From contig JAQCHP010000009.1 in the NCBI GenBank assembly GCA_027619595.1, positions 1 to 64,000 on the forward strand: 64,000 bases of DNA. The letters run 5' to 3'. The position numbers were made by a program, and so were the translations under genes. Below the pieces are notes generated by a model, which did no database searches, was not told the DNA's origin, and saw nothing but the letters and a program-made list of their open reading frames with translations. Below are positions 47,020 through 55,063 of this stretch, in pieces. How positions within the stretch are numbered: position 1 is the stretch's first letter; each line of letters starts with the position of its first letter. This stretch comes from Planctomycetota bacterium (GTDB lineage: Bacteria; Planctomycetota; Planctomycetia; Pirellulales; Pirellulaceae).

Positions 47020-47612
47020 CTAGAACGGGGGAGTCGTACGCTGACTCTATCTTCGGCAAGTTGCCTCGCAAAAATTGTCAAATTGTAACCAACGGCAGAA
47101 GCGGGGTTTCAATGGGGCAGGGTGCGTCGATCGAAGGCGACGCACCAGCGGAATGGCCAAGCCACCGAGATTGCGGGTTACGCGGATTGTACGAAAAGTT
47201 CGTGTGAGGGTGTCTAGACGGGGTGCAGGGCGTCGATGTCTGGTGGCCAATAGCCTACCGCCGACTCCAATTGCGACGCACTCGCGACTTTTTCAGTACT
47301 TTTGTCCTATCCTGGCTACTCCCATTTGCCTGCCTGCGAATTACGACGTATATACCCCTGACGGTCGAGCCTGCCTCATCTTTGCTTGACTGTCGTAAAG
47401 ACTTATCTGGTTGACGCGGCGGATCATCCGCTTATTGACAAAGCACCCTTTGATTACGACACCTTTTCGACGTTGACACCGCAGTTTCGCGGATCGACTG
47501 GTTCCCGACCCAATGGACCGGCGCATCGTGTACTGCCAGCATTGACGACGCAGTTGCTCGACGAAACGAGTTGCTGCCGCACTACCATTGATTGACACCA
47601 AGGATTAACAGC
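47020..47612. other. Gene-free region between methyltransferase-like and subtilisin genes
   Basis: About 590 bases. It contains GGTGCGTCG/CGACGCACC (47121-47146), a perfect 9-base hairpin with an 8-base loop, and nothing else I can support. Both neighbours diverge from it, so it should hold two promoters. Confidence 0.45.
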
Positions 47613-50213
47613 ATGTTTCGTCCCCAGTCACAGCGCAGCTGCGCGCGCTTATTGTGTGGTGAGTCTTTGGAGGCTCGAGCGGCATTGCGTGCGTCGAGTT
47701 TCCAAGAAGTTGGAGCGGCGTGGCAGGAATTTCCGCTAGAATGGGGTGGCCTGGAGCTGACCGTAGCGCCCCAATTGGCCGCCACGAATAACAATGACTT
47801 CAATTTTGCCCACAATGTCTTAGGCCTTAAGGGGCAAGGCCAAACGGTCGCCGTTATCGACTCGGGGGTGGCCTATGACCATCCCGCACTCGGTGGTGGA
47901 CTGGGGACTTCTTTCCGTGTCGTCGGTGGCTGGGACTTTACGGAGGAAAATGACGCAAATCCCTACGACGATGGCCCGGCGGGATTCCATGGAACGCATG
48001 TCGCAGGCATCATTGGCAGTAGCGATGTGAATCATACCGGGCTGGCGCCGGAAGTCGATGTTGTTGCCTTACGTGTCTTTAATGACCAGGGTTCAGGATC
48101 GTTCGATTGGGTCGAACGGGCCTTACGTTGGGTGCACCAAAATCGCTTCACCTACGCTAGTCCCATCACGACGGTTAATATGTCGTTGGGGACCGAATGG
48201 AACTCCAACAGCATCCCCGGATGGACGCGAATTGAGGACGAATTGGCTCAGTTGGAATCCGCCGGTATCGTCGTGGTCGCTTCGGCGGGGAATAGTTTCC
48301 GTAAATTTCAATCGCCCGGCTTGACCTATCCAGCGGTCAGTCCGCACGTAATCGCCGCTGCTAGTATCGGAGCGGACGGCAAGCTCAGCCCGTTCAGTCA
48401 GCGCGTTAACGGCGTTTTGGCAGCACCCGGGGAATCGATTGTCAGTACAGCGCCGGATTATCTATTCGATTTTAATGGCATCACCGATGACTTTACAGCC
48501 GCTTCGGGCACGAGCATGTCGGCACCCTATATTAGCGGAGCCAGTGTGTTGGTTCGTCAGGCGATGCAGATTGCTGGTTGGCAAACCATTACTCCGCTCC
48601 TTATCGAAAATCACCTGCTGCAGACGGCTGATGCCCGTATCGATTCCGTGACGGGCGTGAACTATAAAGCAATCAACTTGCGCCGTGCACTGGAGACCCT
48701 CGTACCGGCCGGCACTTCAGGCGGTGGTTCGACCAACAATCCGCCAGCTGGGGAGACCCCGCCATCAACAATTCCGCTCCAAACGCTGGGTGTCGTGACG
48801 CAACATCAATGGAGTTTGGCAACAGTAGCTGGTGGCAGCCGCTATTCATTGACGGCGTCCCATACAGGTTGGCTTACTTTGGAATGGCGAAATGGAACGT
48901 CAGCGGATGTTACGTTGCGGAATCCCCAAGGTGGGGTCATTCAACAGTTGACCCCGTCCGCGCAATCGCAACGATGGGATGTGCCCGTACAGGCAGGCCA
49001 AACGCTGGAAATCTGGTTTTCGGGGACGAACGGTCACGAAAATGTGCGTGTAACAAATCTTGTTGCGCAAACGGGGGCAGACTTTACCATTTATGGTACT
49101 GCGTCTGTCGACGCGTTTCATGTGCAAGGAGCCACTAACGAACTGGTGATCAATGATACGCGGTATGCGCTGGCCGGTTTAACCAACGTCACCATGCAGT
49201 TGTCCCAATGGCAATCCACCGATCTGGTTTTCATCCATGGGAGTGCACAGGACGAGAGCTTCCAGTTTTCGCCGACCAGCGCGAGTTGGAACGCCAGCGG
49301 CGGATCACAAACGCTGCGCGGTTATCAGTCAGCCCGTTTGCTTGGCGGCGGCGGTCGAGACGCAGTCCAGCTAATTGGAACGTCCGCCGATGAGTCTGCG
49401 ACTTTCGAGGGCAACGCGGGTCGGTTGAGCGGCCCTAACTTTGAACTTGCCGTCGAAGGCTTTGCGACGATTCATGTGCAAGGGCAGGGGGGGAACGATC
49501 GGGTCATTTGGAACGACACGGCAGGCAAGGACCTGTTTTTTAGCCAAGCAGCGGAATCGAGAATGCAAGGGCCCGGCTACCAAAACACCGCGCAAGGGTT
49601 TGCTCAGCACACGGTGCAAGCAACACGGGGTGGGGGCGATTGGGCGTACTTGACCGGTTCAGCCGCGAACGATCGTTTCGTGGCATCGTCCGACCGAGCA
49701 GTATTCTCGTCCGGTAGCCGAAACATCGCAATTACCGGATTTCAACGCGTTTATTGCCAAGCAATCGCGGGTGGCGTGGATTCGGCACTGGTGACCGAAA
49801 GCATGGCACCCGACACGTCGTGGACGAACGTCGGCGGCGCCAGTTCAAACGAGAACTCGGGACTGCTATCGATCGTTTCTGGTTTCCCTTCGATGGCGGG
49901 AGTGGGGGAGGGATGGTTTGAGGATTTAGGCCCGAGCAGATCGACAGCCGTTGGGACCACTCCCGTGTCGACCGCGTCGTCTTTTGCGAGTTATTGCGAG
50001 CCCTTGGATTCGGCGACCCTCGAATTGGTCGCCCGTGATGCCCATCTGCGTGCCAGCGACGTTTCGCTAGCAATCCCCGCGGGCGAAGCTTCCGGTCGAT
50101 TGCCGGCAGAGAATCCTACGGATGCCGCAATTGCCAACTTCGTCCTGACCGAGTTGTCCGCGCGGAAAACGACCCGCCCAAGGCAACCGTTGCGATCCAG
50201 GCCAACCTCGTGA
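47613..50213 (+). CDS. Exported subtilisin-family (S8) serine peptidase
   Basis: 866 residues. The N-terminus (SCARLLCGESLEARAAL) resembles the short leader motif with a conserved ExLExR that I associate with large exported planctomycete proteins. The S8 catalytic triad is Asp83 in VAVIDSGVAYDHP, His126 in GFHGTHVAGIIG and Ser301 in ASGTSMSAPYISG; Asn lies in VVVASAGNSF. The second half (about 380-860) is beta-rich with hemolysin-like GGxGxD patterns (RLLGGGGRDAVQL, HVQGQGGNDRVIW), which may bind calcium. AAGGA lies 8 nt upstream of the ATG at 47613. Confidence 0.88.
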   Translation: MFRPQSQRSCARLLCGESLEARAALRASSFQEVGAAWQEFPLEWGGLELTVAPQLAATNNNDFNFAHNVLGLKGQGQTVAVIDSGVAYDHPALGGGLGTSFRVVGGWDFTEENDANPYDDGPAGFHGTHVAGIIGSSDVNHTGLAPEVDVVALRVFNDQGSGSFDWVERALRWVHQNRFTYASPITTVNMSLGTEWNSNSIPGWTRIEDELAQLESAGIVVVASAGNSFRKFQSPGLTYPAVSPHVIAAASIGADGKLSPFSQRVNGVLAAPGESIVSTAPDYLFDFNGITDDFTAASGTSMSAPYISGASVLVRQAMQIAGWQTITPLLIENHLLQTADARIDSVTGVNYKAINLRRALETLVPAGTSGGGSTNNPPAGETPPSTIPLQTLGVVTQHQWSLATVAGGSRYSLTASHTGWLTLEWRNGTSADVTLRNPQGGVIQQLTPSAQSQRWDVPVQAGQTLEIWFSGTNGHENVRVTNLVAQTGADFTIYGTASVDAFHVQGATNELVINDTRYALAGLTNVTMQLSQWQSTDLVFIHGSAQDESFQFSPTSASWNASGGSQTLRGYQSARLLGGGGRDAVQLIGTSADESATFEGNAGRLSGPNFELAVEGFATIHVQGQGGNDRVIWNDTAGKDLFFSQAAESRMQGPGYQNTAQGFAQHTVQATRGGGDWAYLTGSAANDRFVASSDRAVFSSGSRNIAITGFQRVYCQAIAGGVDSALVTESMAPDTSWTNVGGASSNENSGLLSIVSGFPSMAGVGEGWFEDLGPSRSTAVGTTPVSTASSFASYCEPLDSATLELVARDAHLRASDVSLAIPAGEASGRLPAENPTDAAIANFVLTELSARKTTRPRQPLRSRPTS

Positions 50214-50377
50214 CATCACAACGGCTCTTAAGTGCTAGCACCCGAAATTTTGACTCATCCAAAAGATTGGAGTTTGCGCCGGGGGCCGATTTGTTTTAGG
50301 ATAGGCGATAGCAGGATAGGGCCAGCGGCGCCAATTTGGTAGCACTCTGCTGGCGGAGCCGGACAAGTCATACAAGG

Positions 50378-53300
50378 ATGAATGCAGTGGAAGTACGTGA
50401 CGTGCTGATTCGAGGCTGGGGACCTTGGCAGTCCATCGAATGGAAGAACCTGTCTCCGGGCTTCAATTTTCTCGAAACGACGAGCGAATCCAGCGCGGGC
50501 GAATTGGAGATCCTACTGGGGGCAGGTTTTGCTCAGAGTTCGATCCTCCCACGCGAGTACGAGCAGTCGTTGCCTACCGAGGTGCGTTTGAGGGTCGTGG
50601 ACGGATCGCTCAAGAGCACGATCAAGTCCAACGAGAAGGGGCAATGGAATCGACTTCTGACACGTAAGAAGGGCGACACGAAGGGGGAGCATGTTGACGT
50701 AGATGATGTTCGAGAATCGGTCGAGCTACCTTCAGACGCAGAGACCGTTGATCGTTTCTTTGCTCCCTACCGCCGTCGTCCTGCGGGGATTTGGCAATTT
50801 GAAGCCGAATGCGTTCGGGATTTGATTGTTAGTCGAATGGCTCGTGTGCCGCGGAAGGAACGCCCAAGTGCCAACGAAGGTGAGCCCGTCTGGTCTGTGT
50901 TGCGGGCATGGTTGGAGCAGGGGAACGACGCCCAGCAGGATATGGATCGACGTACCCAGGCGAACCTACGGCGCACCGAATCATGGCTGAAGGCGGGCGA
51001 TATGAGTTCCCACGTGAACGCGTGGCAAAACGCTTGCAAAGAACAACAACGCGTCCAGGTCGAGATCGATAAATTGGAGTCCAAGCAGCGGCGTTTGCGT
51101 GCTTTTCATCGTCTCAAACAATGGCAGCGGCGATGGCTTCAGCTACAGGCGGAAAAGCCACGCGTTGACCTCAAACAGGTGTCGGCAGTTTCTGCAGCCG
51201 TACCTCGTGTGCAGGCATTACAAAAGCAACGCGATGATTTGTCGAAGAAACACGCAAGATGGCAAACTCGACGCAAGAAATTTCAAGAACTGGCCGGCAT
51301 CGCATCCGCTCAGGCGGCAGCTCACGAAGTATCGACTGTGGAGGCGTCCGAGGCATCTCCGCAGGAACTACGCAAACTGCTAGCGCACGCGAAGTCTGCT
51401 TGGTCGGTTGAGCGGCGTTTGAAACGCCCTCAACGACTTTTCCCGACGGAGGGTTCTTTCGACAATTTTTCTGCCGACGTAACAGCAATGCCGACACCGG
51501 CACAAAGTGCACGGCGATCCGAATTGGACCGCGAGTTACAGCAAGCCCAAACGATTTTGCAAACGCTACGTGAGCAGCGGCAGGAAGCTTTGGCACGCCA
51601 TGCGAGTGTATCGCAGCTAGATCGATCGATGGAGCGTGAACCGATTGTTGCGCCCGCGGCTTGGCAAAGGGAACGACAAGAACTTCAACAAGAGTTCGAG
51701 GCGATGCGTGCCGAGTCACAGGCACTGCGGCGTCAGTGTGAGCAGACGATACAGCCTGGGTTGATGAACGATTGGCAGCGTGTTGGCGTGACAGGCCTAT
51801 TTTTGGGCGGTCTCGTCGCGATCGTATTTGGGATATTTCTCAATCTGGATGCGCCGGTTTGGCCAGTTGTGGGAGTCGGTTGTTCGGCCCTCGTCATTGG
51901 TGTCATGTTGCGGATTAGCGACGAACGTGTTTCGGCTCCGCGGATGGTAGGGCAGCGAGCCCGCTTGGACGAATTGCAATTTGATATGCACGAAAATCGC
52001 CGTCGATGGCAGCAGCTTGAGACGACGCCCGTCCCTATTGGCTCGCAAGTTATACGCGATAACGACAATGCGTTTGTTAATTCGACGATGGGGCAGGAAG
52101 TGGAATGGCTGGACGCAGAACTGGAAGCTGCGAACTCACGGGTGGACGTGTTGCGTCAGCAACTTGTTCAATTGGGGCCAGAGTCGCTCCTGGCCGTTCC
52201 CCCGGCCGCCGCATTGTCGCACGGAGCATTGGATCCAGTTAGCAGCAATCGATTGCCGTCCGCACCCGTTCCAGCCGCTCAGCGAAAACTGTTACAGCAG
52301 TGGAAACAGCGAGCCGCGCGCTGCTTGCGGGATACCGAAGTGCTGGCCGATGATTGCTCTGTCCGCCGAATCATGACTCGGTTGAGGCGCGAGAATAGCC
52401 AAGTTCGTCGGCAGTTGCAATCGCGGCAGCGTGCCCGCAAACAATACCGAAGTGCTCTTGTTCAGGAGCGTCGGTGGGAAAAGGAATTGCAAAAATGTTC
52501 GCACCGTAAGCAATCGCTTTTACGACGATTTCGTTGCGAAGATTTGGCGGCCTTAGTGCAGTTGCAGCAAGAAGGGGAGCGGGCGACGGTTTGGCGGCGC
52601 AAGTCGCAAGGGCTTGTCAACCGCGTTCGTCGCAGACTACCCACGGGAATCACCGTCCAGACTCTCGACTCGCATTTGCAACAAGAAGAACGCGAACTGG
52701 GAGAACTGGAACTCGTACCTTTGCAGGAGCGATTATCGGAATTGCATACGAAACAGCAACAGGGATTGTTGAGCTTGGCGAAGGATTTGCCACGCGAAGG
52801 TACAAGAAATTCCGACATTGCGTGGAACGAGCTAGAACAGCAGTGGAGTACCGCGAGTGAACCGGTGGCAAGCTGGACCGCGCGCGGAATGCAGTTGCTG
52901 ACTCAATTCCCCGTCCTTTCGCCAGAATCGGAACCCGCATCGAAATCGGAAGCGTTCCGACAAACGGACACGCTTCGTCTCGCTAGTGAATGGTGCGCCC
53001 AGATCCTGAAGAAGCCAGGGCTTCAATTGGGCACCCACGATGATGACGCTCGGTTGTGCGTTAAGTTCGAAGCATCGGCGATTGATCAGTCTCTTGCGTT
53101 GTTGAGCGATGAACAGATAAAACCGATTTTGTTTGCGCTGCGCTGTGCCGTGGTCGTGGGGCTCCATCGGCAGGGGACACGGTGCCCCATGGTGGTGCGC
53201 GGCTCCGATCTCTTGGCCACAGAGAATGGCTGTTTTGCTGTCCTGCAACAAGTGGCTAAAGAAGTGCAAGTGGTAGTCGTGGGTGGTTCGTTGGAACTAG

Positions 53301-53593
53301 GGAATACTCTCGTTGAACTGGGAGCCACACGGGTGGTTCCGCACGTTCAGGTTGCGCCGGTGGCTGAGGTGGTGCAGGAACCGGTCGCCAACCCTGTGCT
53401 GCCTCCAGTACCGATTGTCTCCGCGCCGGTCGCGGTTGCCGCGGCGCCAGTTCCCGCGCCACGGGAAGTTTTCATCGAGCGGGAAACCTACGAAGTCGAA
53501 GGTCCGGTCAGGTTCTCCGATCCTTCGACAGGCACGGCCTATCGTGAGCCTCCGAGCTGGCAGATTCACGAAACAGACCGCCGTTCAGCATAA
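50378..53593 (+). CDS. YhaN/SbcC-like coiled-coil protein without Walker motifs
   Basis: 1,071 residues. The start VEVRDVLIRGWGPWQSIEWK followed by LSPGFNFLE is laid out like the N-terminus of YhaN/SbcC ATPases. The place of the Walker A loop reads LETTSESSAGELEILLGAG, with no GxxGxGKS. Residues about 190-470 and 530-870 are coiled coil, and two membrane-like segments (VTGLFLGGLVAIVFGIFLNL and PVVGVGCSALVIGVML) lie between them at about 469-513. The C-terminus (EQIKPILFALRCAVVVGLH, CPMVVRGSDLLATENGC) matches the motor layout but lacks a Walker B acid pair. A Pro/Val-rich tail follows. The ATG at 50378 is used; a GTG at 50387 has AAGGA 8 nt upstream and is an alternative. Confidence 0.75.
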   Translation: MNAVEVRDVLIRGWGPWQSIEWKNLSPGFNFLETTSESSAGELEILLGAGFAQSSILPREYEQSLPTEVRLRVVDGSLKSTIKSNEKGQWNRLLTRKKGDTKGEHVDVDDVRESVELPSDAETVDRFFAPYRRRPAGIWQFEAECVRDLIVSRMARVPRKERPSANEGEPVWSVLRAWLEQGNDAQQDMDRRTQANLRRTESWLKAGDMSSHVNAWQNACKEQQRVQVEIDKLESKQRRLRAFHRLKQWQRRWLQLQAEKPRVDLKQVSAVSAAVPRVQALQKQRDDLSKKHARWQTRRKKFQELAGIASAQAAAHEVSTVEASEASPQELRKLLAHAKSAWSVERRLKRPQRLFPTEGSFDNFSADVTAMPTPAQSARRSELDRELQQAQTILQTLREQRQEALARHASVSQLDRSMEREPIVAPAAWQRERQELQQEFEAMRAESQALRRQCEQTIQPGLMNDWQRVGVTGLFLGGLVAIVFGIFLNLDAPVWPVVGVGCSALVIGVMLRISDERVSAPRMVGQRARLDELQFDMHENRRRWQQLETTPVPIGSQVIRDNDNAFVNSTMGQEVEWLDAELEAANSRVDVLRQQLVQLGPESLLAVPPAAALSHGALDPVSSNRLPSAPVPAAQRKLLQQWKQRAARCLRDTEVLADDCSVRRIMTRLRRENSQVRRQLQSRQRARKQYRSALVQERRWEKELQKCSHRKQSLLRRFRCEDLAALVQLQQEGERATVWRRKSQGLVNRVRRRLPTGITVQTLDSHLQQEERELGELELVPLQERLSELHTKQQQGLLSLAKDLPREGTRNSDIAWNELEQQWSTASEPVASWTARGMQLLTQFPVLSPESEPASKSEAFRQTDTLRLASEWCAQILKKPGLQLGTHDDDARLCVKFEASAIDQSLALLSDEQIKPILFALRCAVVVGLHRQGTRCPMVVRGSDLLATENGCFAVLQQVAKEVQVVVVGGSLELGNTLVELGATRVVPHVQVAPVAEVVQEPVANPVLPPVPIVSAPVAVAAAPVPAPREVFIERETYEVEGPVRFSDPSTGTAYREPPSWQIHETDRRSA

Positions 53594-53812: not shown

Positions 53813-55063
53813 CTAACGATTAATCGTGAAACCGGCTGTAACGCCACCCGCGGTAAACGCCTCGTCGGTACCAGTTACGCCTCGGCCGACTCCATCACCA
53901 AACACCAGTAGATTCATTCCACCGCGTATTGCCACGTACTGAGTCAACTCAAAGGTCCCCTCGAGTCGTAACTCACCGCCATAGACAAACCGACTGTTCT
54001 GGTCGTAGAACGTGTCGTTGCGGAAGTCGACTACCGTGGCAGGTCTCGGTCGGACGAAGCTGTCAAGGGCTCCGTCACCGTCGAAGGTGTGGTCCACCTC
54101 TTCCGACGTCAGTTCGGCCGTGACGTTCCGTTCGCGATTTTGCCAGTTATTCATCGTGAATCCGCGTAGGTCTGTAGAGATGAGCCACCGTCCTCGACGT
54201 AAGAAACTTCTAAAGCCGAACTGGCCGCCAAACATGTCGTTATCTGTATAGACGAGTTCGCGAATATAGCCGTCCCAATCGTCGATCCCTTCAAAGCTAA
54301 CGCCGGAGGCGTCTGGGGGACCGAAGGGAAGCGGTGTAGTGAAGTCCCGTACATAGTCGGCACGATCGCTATGGTCGCGAATTCGCACGTACTTCGCGCC
54401 GAACAAGGGCTCAATGACCATACCATTGTGGAGTGGCTTAAGTCGCCAAGTGCGGCTCAAGTCAAATGAATAGAAATTGAAGGCGTTGAGCGTCAAGAAG
54501 ATGTCACCAATGGGATTGAGACGGAAGTCGGTATCTCGCACGATGAGCGTTGTGGTGGTCGTGGTGCCGTTTGGATTGAGCGTTGTCGTCCTTTCGTTGC
54601 GGCGTGTATTGTCTTCATGTCGTTGGACGTTGGGATTGTCCAGCTTCCAGGCATTGAAGAGCCAACCTTTGTCGTTCTCCTGCATGTAGCCAAGTTCGAA
54701 ACGGTTTCCGTAGGTCCAGTCGCCGCCGTAATCGGTCGAGTTTTCGGCGGTCATGATGCCTGACACGGGACCGCCTTGCCCCGGAAAATCGAACGGGCGT
54801 ATTTCGTATTGCAGATTGTCAATGGCGGAATGCTTCCGCGAAACGCTCATGTAGGCGCGGTCGTACGCAAAGAAGAATCCCGTATTCGGCTGCCGGCCGT
54901 CGTAAAAGTCTTCTTTGTACAAAGGCTTGAACCAGTCGGACTGGAAAGAAAAGTCTTCCGTATTTGTCAACGGCTGGTAGTCTTGAGCTCTTGTCGGCAA
55001 CGATCCGCCAATTACGGCGAACAAGATCGCTAACCCGGTCAGATATGAGCGAATCCAGGACAT
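53813..55063 (-). CDS. Predicted outer-membrane beta-barrel protein
   Basis: 416 residues. A signal peptide (LTGLAILFAVIGGSLPTRA) is followed by alternating polar/hydrophobic strands rich in Tyr, Phe and Trp: GFFFAYDRAYMSVSRKH, RFELGYMQENDKGWLFNAW, FNFYSFDLSRTWRLKPLHNG and FRSFLRRGRWLISTDLRGFT. The protein ends in a strand (AGGVTAGFTINR). It resembles planctomycete barrel proteins of the BBP7/porin-like type; the substrate is unknown. GGAA lies upstream of the ATG at 55063, and a good terminator follows. The gene stands alone. Confidence 0.72.
   Translation of the reverse strand: MSWIRSYLTGLAILFAVIGGSLPTRAQDYQPLTNTEDFSFQSDWFKPLYKEDFYDGRQPNTGFFFAYDRAYMSVSRKHSAIDNLQYEIRPFDFPGQGGPVSGIMTAENSTDYGGDWTYGNRFELGYMQENDKGWLFNAWKLDNPNVQRHEDNTRRNERTTTLNPNGTTTTTTLIVRDTDFRLNPIGDIFLTLNAFNFYSFDLSRTWRLKPLHNGMVIEPLFGAKYVRIRDHSDRADYVRDFTTPLPFGPPDASGVSFEGIDDWDGYIRELVYTDNDMFGGQFGFRSFLRRGRWLISTDLRGFTMNNWQNRERNVTAELTSEEVDHTFDGDGALDSFVRPRPATVVDFRNDTFYDQNSRFVYGGELRLEGTFELTQYVAIRGGMNLLVFGDGVGRGVTGTDEAFTAGGVTAGFTINR

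Follow-up and report, generated by a model that had tools for sequence, protein, structure and literature searches.

We found that a protein encoded in the window, the 64,000-nucleotide stretch of Pirellulaceae DNA analysed here, appears to be a fixed pseudo-ATPase of the YhaN type. Our reading, to which we give a probability of roughly 0.7, is that this protein (P1, or P0001) descends from a YhaN-like ATPase of the DNA-repair type, related to Rad50, whose Walker A, Walker B, ABC signature, and H-loop motifs were lost in the common ancestor of one Pirellulaceae clade, and that the remaining architecture has been kept. The genome that holds the window (G000; family f1, called Pirellulaceae here) also encodes two intact YhaN-like paralogues: YhaN-A (L077), whose partner phosphoesterase is intact, and YhaN-B (L078), which bears a membrane hairpin.

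The P1 coding sequence (50378–53593; this and all P1 features below are on the forward strand) specifies 1071 residues with no internal stop, and the mechanical open reading frame begins further upstream, with a possible TTG start at 50336. By the codon usage of the window the P1 frame ranks first of six for coding, and a stop-free run of this length has a log10 probability of about −19 given the base composition. None of the three forward frames over the gene contains a G-x4-GK[S/T] P-loop or an hhhhD[D/E] Walker B, and a frameshift that conceals the P-loop is therefore ruled out. The sequence-only reading, which had reported a 3.2-kb frame intact and devoid of both Walker motifs, was thus accurate. 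Searches of Pfam, NCBIfam, and PDB sequences with P1 gave nothing significant; PF13514 and PF13476 did not reach their curated cut-offs (no match at E ≤ 1), and DUF4332 was not found in the Pfam search.

We aligned P1 with 37 intact YhaN-B proteins, which show at least 95% invariance at Walker A (G.NEAGK.T), the signature (LS.GTRE), Walker B (DDV.VN.D), and the H-loop (FTCH.H). At these four sites P1 reads TTSESSAG, LSDEQIK, VVRGSDLLA, and VVGGSLE, so that the signature and the H-loop are lost in addition to the two Walker motifs. The Walker A position falls at residues 34–41 (50477–50500; TTSESSAG against GPNEAGKT), which lies inside the segment LETTSESSAGELEILLGAG proposed earlier for the P-loop and narrows it to the aligned residues. 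The signature position is at residues 909–915 (53102–53122; LSDEQIK against LSxGTRE), the Walker B position at residues 937–946 (53186–53215; PMVVRGSDLL against LPLVLDDVLVN), and the H-loop position at residues 964–973 (53267–53296; QVVVVGGSLE against QVLVFTCHEH). Some structural landmarks are partly kept, such as the helix ALR-xA and, ahead of the head, RQ-xx-TL-xx-AS.

The order of parts in P1 is half-head, coil, two hydrophobic helices, coil, half-head. The N-terminal half-head (residues 1–155; 50378–50842) is a strand-rich lobe and is followed in the model by a first coiled coil (about residues 171–460; 50888–51757). The membrane hairpin (about residues 465–511; 51770–51910) comprises hydrophobic segments at residues 469–487 and 493–511 by hydropathy, with a short loop, NLDAPVWP, and arginines flanking them on the outside. 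A second modelled coiled coil (about residues 512–842; 51911–52903) leads to the C-terminal half-head (residues 847–989; 52916–53344) and to a low-complexity tail (53345–53590) that ends in EPPSWQIHETDRRSA. Hydropathy and the model agree here with the YhaN/SbcC-type layout, with membrane helices between the coils, that had been read from the sequence.

The same layout is found in YhaN-B, and the evidence supports P1 as a remote relative of these hairpin-bearing Pirellulaceae YhaN (AAA_27/SbcC-like) proteins. The best pairwise match of P1 is to the YhaN-B of another family genome (G020; 25% identity, E 1e-9). A YhaN-B profile from which P1 was left out gives P1 45 bits, whereas neither the reversed protein nor any of 20 local shuffles exceeds −11.8. 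By region, the C-head scores 23.8 bits, a value that no shuffle reached in sets of 1546 and 1481, and the hairpin scores 34.2 bits, above all of several thousand shuffles. The N-head alone scores a weak 8.0 bits, which 1 of 1435 shuffles reaches. As judged from sequence, common descent with YhaN-B is therefore firm for the C-head, the coil, and the hairpin, all of which score far above shuffled controls, whereas the N-head by itself is no more than suggestive of it. The two proteins differ in that YhaN-B keeps all four motifs and P1 none; moreover, the intact paralogues match Pfam YhaN/AAA_27 (PF13514) and P1 does not, and the YhaN-B gene comes after a phosphoesterase-like gene, whereas the gene upstream of P1 encodes a subtilase and not an SbcD/YhaO-like phosphoesterase.

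The AlphaFold2 model of P1, computed from an alignment with 30 YhaN-B rows, has a mean pLDDT of 62.9 and a pTM of 0.31. Its pLDDT is uneven, with hairpin blocks up to about 90 (about 80–90 over the hairpin itself), the C-head mostly at 65–87, and the N-head mostly at 35–70; the C-head modelled from the single sequence gave a pLDDT of 35. When the model was searched with Foldseek and VIA-align, Smc5/6, Rad50, condensin, cohesin, and MukB ranked first, and the top VIA-align rows were Rad50/SMC/RecF heads with Z up to 13.5. The C-lobe superimposes on 1f2u_B with an rmsd of 2.3 over 128 residues (Z 13.3). P1 is therefore predicted to have a Rad50/SMC-type ABC head formed by both termini. The absence of such a head, named beforehand as an observation that would speak against this origin, was not seen, in a model to which YhaN-B rows had been supplied. 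Since those rows carry the YhaN fold, the modelled fold agrees with descent from YhaN and is not independent proof of it; together with the C-head and hairpin scores, it supports the YhaN ancestry suggested earlier.

P1 resembles Rad50, SbcC, and SMC proteins in predicted head fold and rod layout but has no ATP motifs. The apex of the coiled coil is a zinc hook in Rad50 and a hinge in SMC, whereas in P1 it is a membrane hairpin. P1 also shares an SMC-like architecture with the archaea-specific SMC-related proteins ClsN/Sph, which like it are neither classical SMC nor Rad50 proteins; these were defined with Walker motifs present, in a study that dropped candidates that were highly diverged or without Walker motifs (PMC9389158).

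P1 is not alone in this state. A C-head search of 70 family genomes recovered YhaN-B, YhaN-A, and further paralogues, about 60 of which we read. We define class IV as proteins in which all four ABC motifs are lost, the membrane hairpin is kept, and DUF4332 is absent, a description that fits P1. Seven other genomes in six genera encode such a protein, a candidate orthologue of P1 (G084 and G004 in genus g5, G048 in g49, G064 in g65, G077 in g78, G079 in g80, and G066 in g67), and with P1 the class spans eight genomes in seven genera. The sequence-only reading had looked to homologues that lack the P-loop and keep the frame, and these are such homologues. It had also taken relatives with intact Walker motifs as a sign of a degenerate exception; such relatives are present, but they are paralogues that accompany the dead copy. 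In P1 and the six aligned class IV members none of the four motifs remains complete, although isolated acidic residues of Walker B are still present in some of these proteins. The decay is graded, in that the G004 copy reads a half-decayed VGPVEAKMKQ at the P-loop site and the g67 copy has no P-loop but keeps LPIILDDIL at Walker B. No class IV protein matches Pfam over threshold. A tryptophan motif at the C-terminus was rejected as a class marker, as it is common to class IV and YhaN-B; W or WW stands near the end of many YhaN-B tails as well.

Among the best-scoring candidates per genome, class IV is so far known only from these genera: the 29 best hits of an order-wide search, P1 apart, have Walker A in 29 of 29 and a Walker B pattern in 28 of 29. 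A scan of 84,980 species with peptides of P1 itself returned no close relative. One match of 15 bits (G179:C178) was rejected as a short chance match. A search of the open literature turned up no account of YhaN proteins without Walker motifs; as subscription papers lay mostly outside the search, this speaks only weakly for the absence of such an account.

The tree of YhaN-B, which contains the intact paralogue only and is free of the long branches of class IV, unites every genus known to bear class IV with the window genus and g67 in a single clade (SH-aLRT 88). After seeing this tree we looked for a class IV gene in g67 and found it, as predicted; class IV is present in every sampled genus of the clade that holds the window genus. 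Because the window genus and the class IV genera form one YhaN-B clade, the favoured reading of the sequences is that catalysis was lost once, long ago, and that the frame has been preserved ever since. Joint trees likewise join P1 to class IV (SH-aLRT 95–98), but on a P1 branch of about 4 changes per site, and its position with class IV may reflect long-branch attraction. P1 could alternatively have arisen as a duplicate of YhaN-B within its own lineage and have lost catalysis independently, with class IV as a parallel case. P1 does score higher against the YhaN-B profile (45 bits) than against a four-member class IV profile (16 bits), the protein that matches it best in pairwise comparison is an intact YhaN-B, and it shares no synteny with class IV; repeated P-loop loss in another group of YhaN-like proteins (class III, below) makes convergence possible. 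Such an independent decay nonetheless seems unlikely to us, given a window genus nested where each sampled genus has class IV, the placement of P1 in the trees, and a window genome in which no class IV gene other than P1 was found.

Divergence in class IV is rapid. Within genus g5 the two class IV proteins are 30% identical, against 56% for YhaN-B, so that the class evolves about twice as fast within one genus, and dS between the two genes is saturated. This speed is what one would expect if P1 were a decaying pseudogene whose frame survives by chance and whose protein has no function. Against this stand 1071 stop-free codons with coding bias, and frames that are open in all eight class IV members at only about 17–30% identity among those aligned; we regard a pseudogene as improbable. 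Because the frames are intact in eight genomes, the class probably retains a structural or regulatory job. That this job still involves nucleotide, bound through non-canonical residues, is hardly credible: the head fold is predicted to be kept, but the four nucleotide-contacting motifs are lost and the alignment of class IV holds no conserved substitute for them.

The surroundings of the gene are variable. A MazG-like gene divergently adjoins class IV in g5, g65, and g78, and in g49 the same neighbour was inferred from a reverse-strand reading (loci L200, L201, L202, L299, L300); a PEP-CTERM-type gene often lies beyond it. A PPK2-like polyphosphate kinase flanks the class IV locus in g5 and g49. 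No MazG-like gene stands beside P1 or beside the g80 and g67 copies, and that of the window genome is on another contig than P1. The subtilase (Peptidase_S8; 47592–50213, forward strand) has orthologues in 64 of 100 family genomes, and none of the 40 neighbourhoods that were read contained a P1-like protein; the subtilase has no conserved partner gene. We therefore reject a linkage between P1 and the subtilase. The barrel-like protein on the other side (53813–55063, reverse strand) has a sub-threshold BBP7 match, and its gene shares the strand of an adjoining ATP synthase gene cluster. Both neighbours look coincidental, as had been thought possible.

Catalytic loss also touches the partner of YhaN-B. 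The phosphoesterase encoded upstream of YhaN-B no longer has the Asn and His of GNHD in any of the 25 aligned loci, and in the same loci GGxH or less replaces GHxH, with the first His gone. The copy in the window genome (L078:5288–6523, reverse strand) has lost DxH too and has no Pfam match, whereas the phosphoesterase partners of YhaN-A keep GNHD and GHxH where the alignment covers them. Because the phosphoesterase motifs are lost and those of YhaN-B kept, the YhaN-B pair appears, from these alignments, to combine an ATPase that is still live with a nuclease-like (Mre11/SbcD-like) partner whose catalysis is impaired. The class III proteins have YhaN-type heads like P1, but unlike P1 they bear tandem DUF4332 repeats (PF14229) at the C-terminus. 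Their loci (L110–L128, L132–L136, and similar ones) show all stages of P-loop decay, some being wholly Walker-less, and this decay, graded or complete, spans several Pirellulaceae genera.

How might such a protein work? We envisage P1 as an antiparallel coiled-coil rod, with the two half-heads still packed together at its base, on the cytoplasmic side, and with the hairpin at its tip set in the membrane; hydrophobic segments with arginines on their outer sides would fit both coils in the cytoplasm. P1 would then act independently of nucleotide, either as a structural tether anchored in the membrane or, itself non-hydrolysing, by pairing or competing with the intact YhaN-B of its own cell. In ABC dimers each composite site requires Walker motifs from one subunit and the signature from its partner. 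As P1 lacks the ATP-contacting motifs and the signature, both composite sites of a heterodimer with YhaN-B would be incomplete, and the dimer would be non-cycling, leaving P1 as a scaffold, tether, or inhibitor. A broader and rather doubtful proposal is that the clade turned a YhaN/SbcCD-like system into a largely non-catalytic membrane-anchored assembly of dead phosphoesterase, live YhaN-B, and fully dead YhaN, in which the dead YhaN would pair with YhaN-B or replace it as a structural rod.

Proteins of the SMC/Rad50 type have so far been understood via their ATP cycle. A rod with a head fold and a membrane anchor but no catalytic motifs, fixed across several genera, would offer a natural test of the roles that such rods can play free of ATP.
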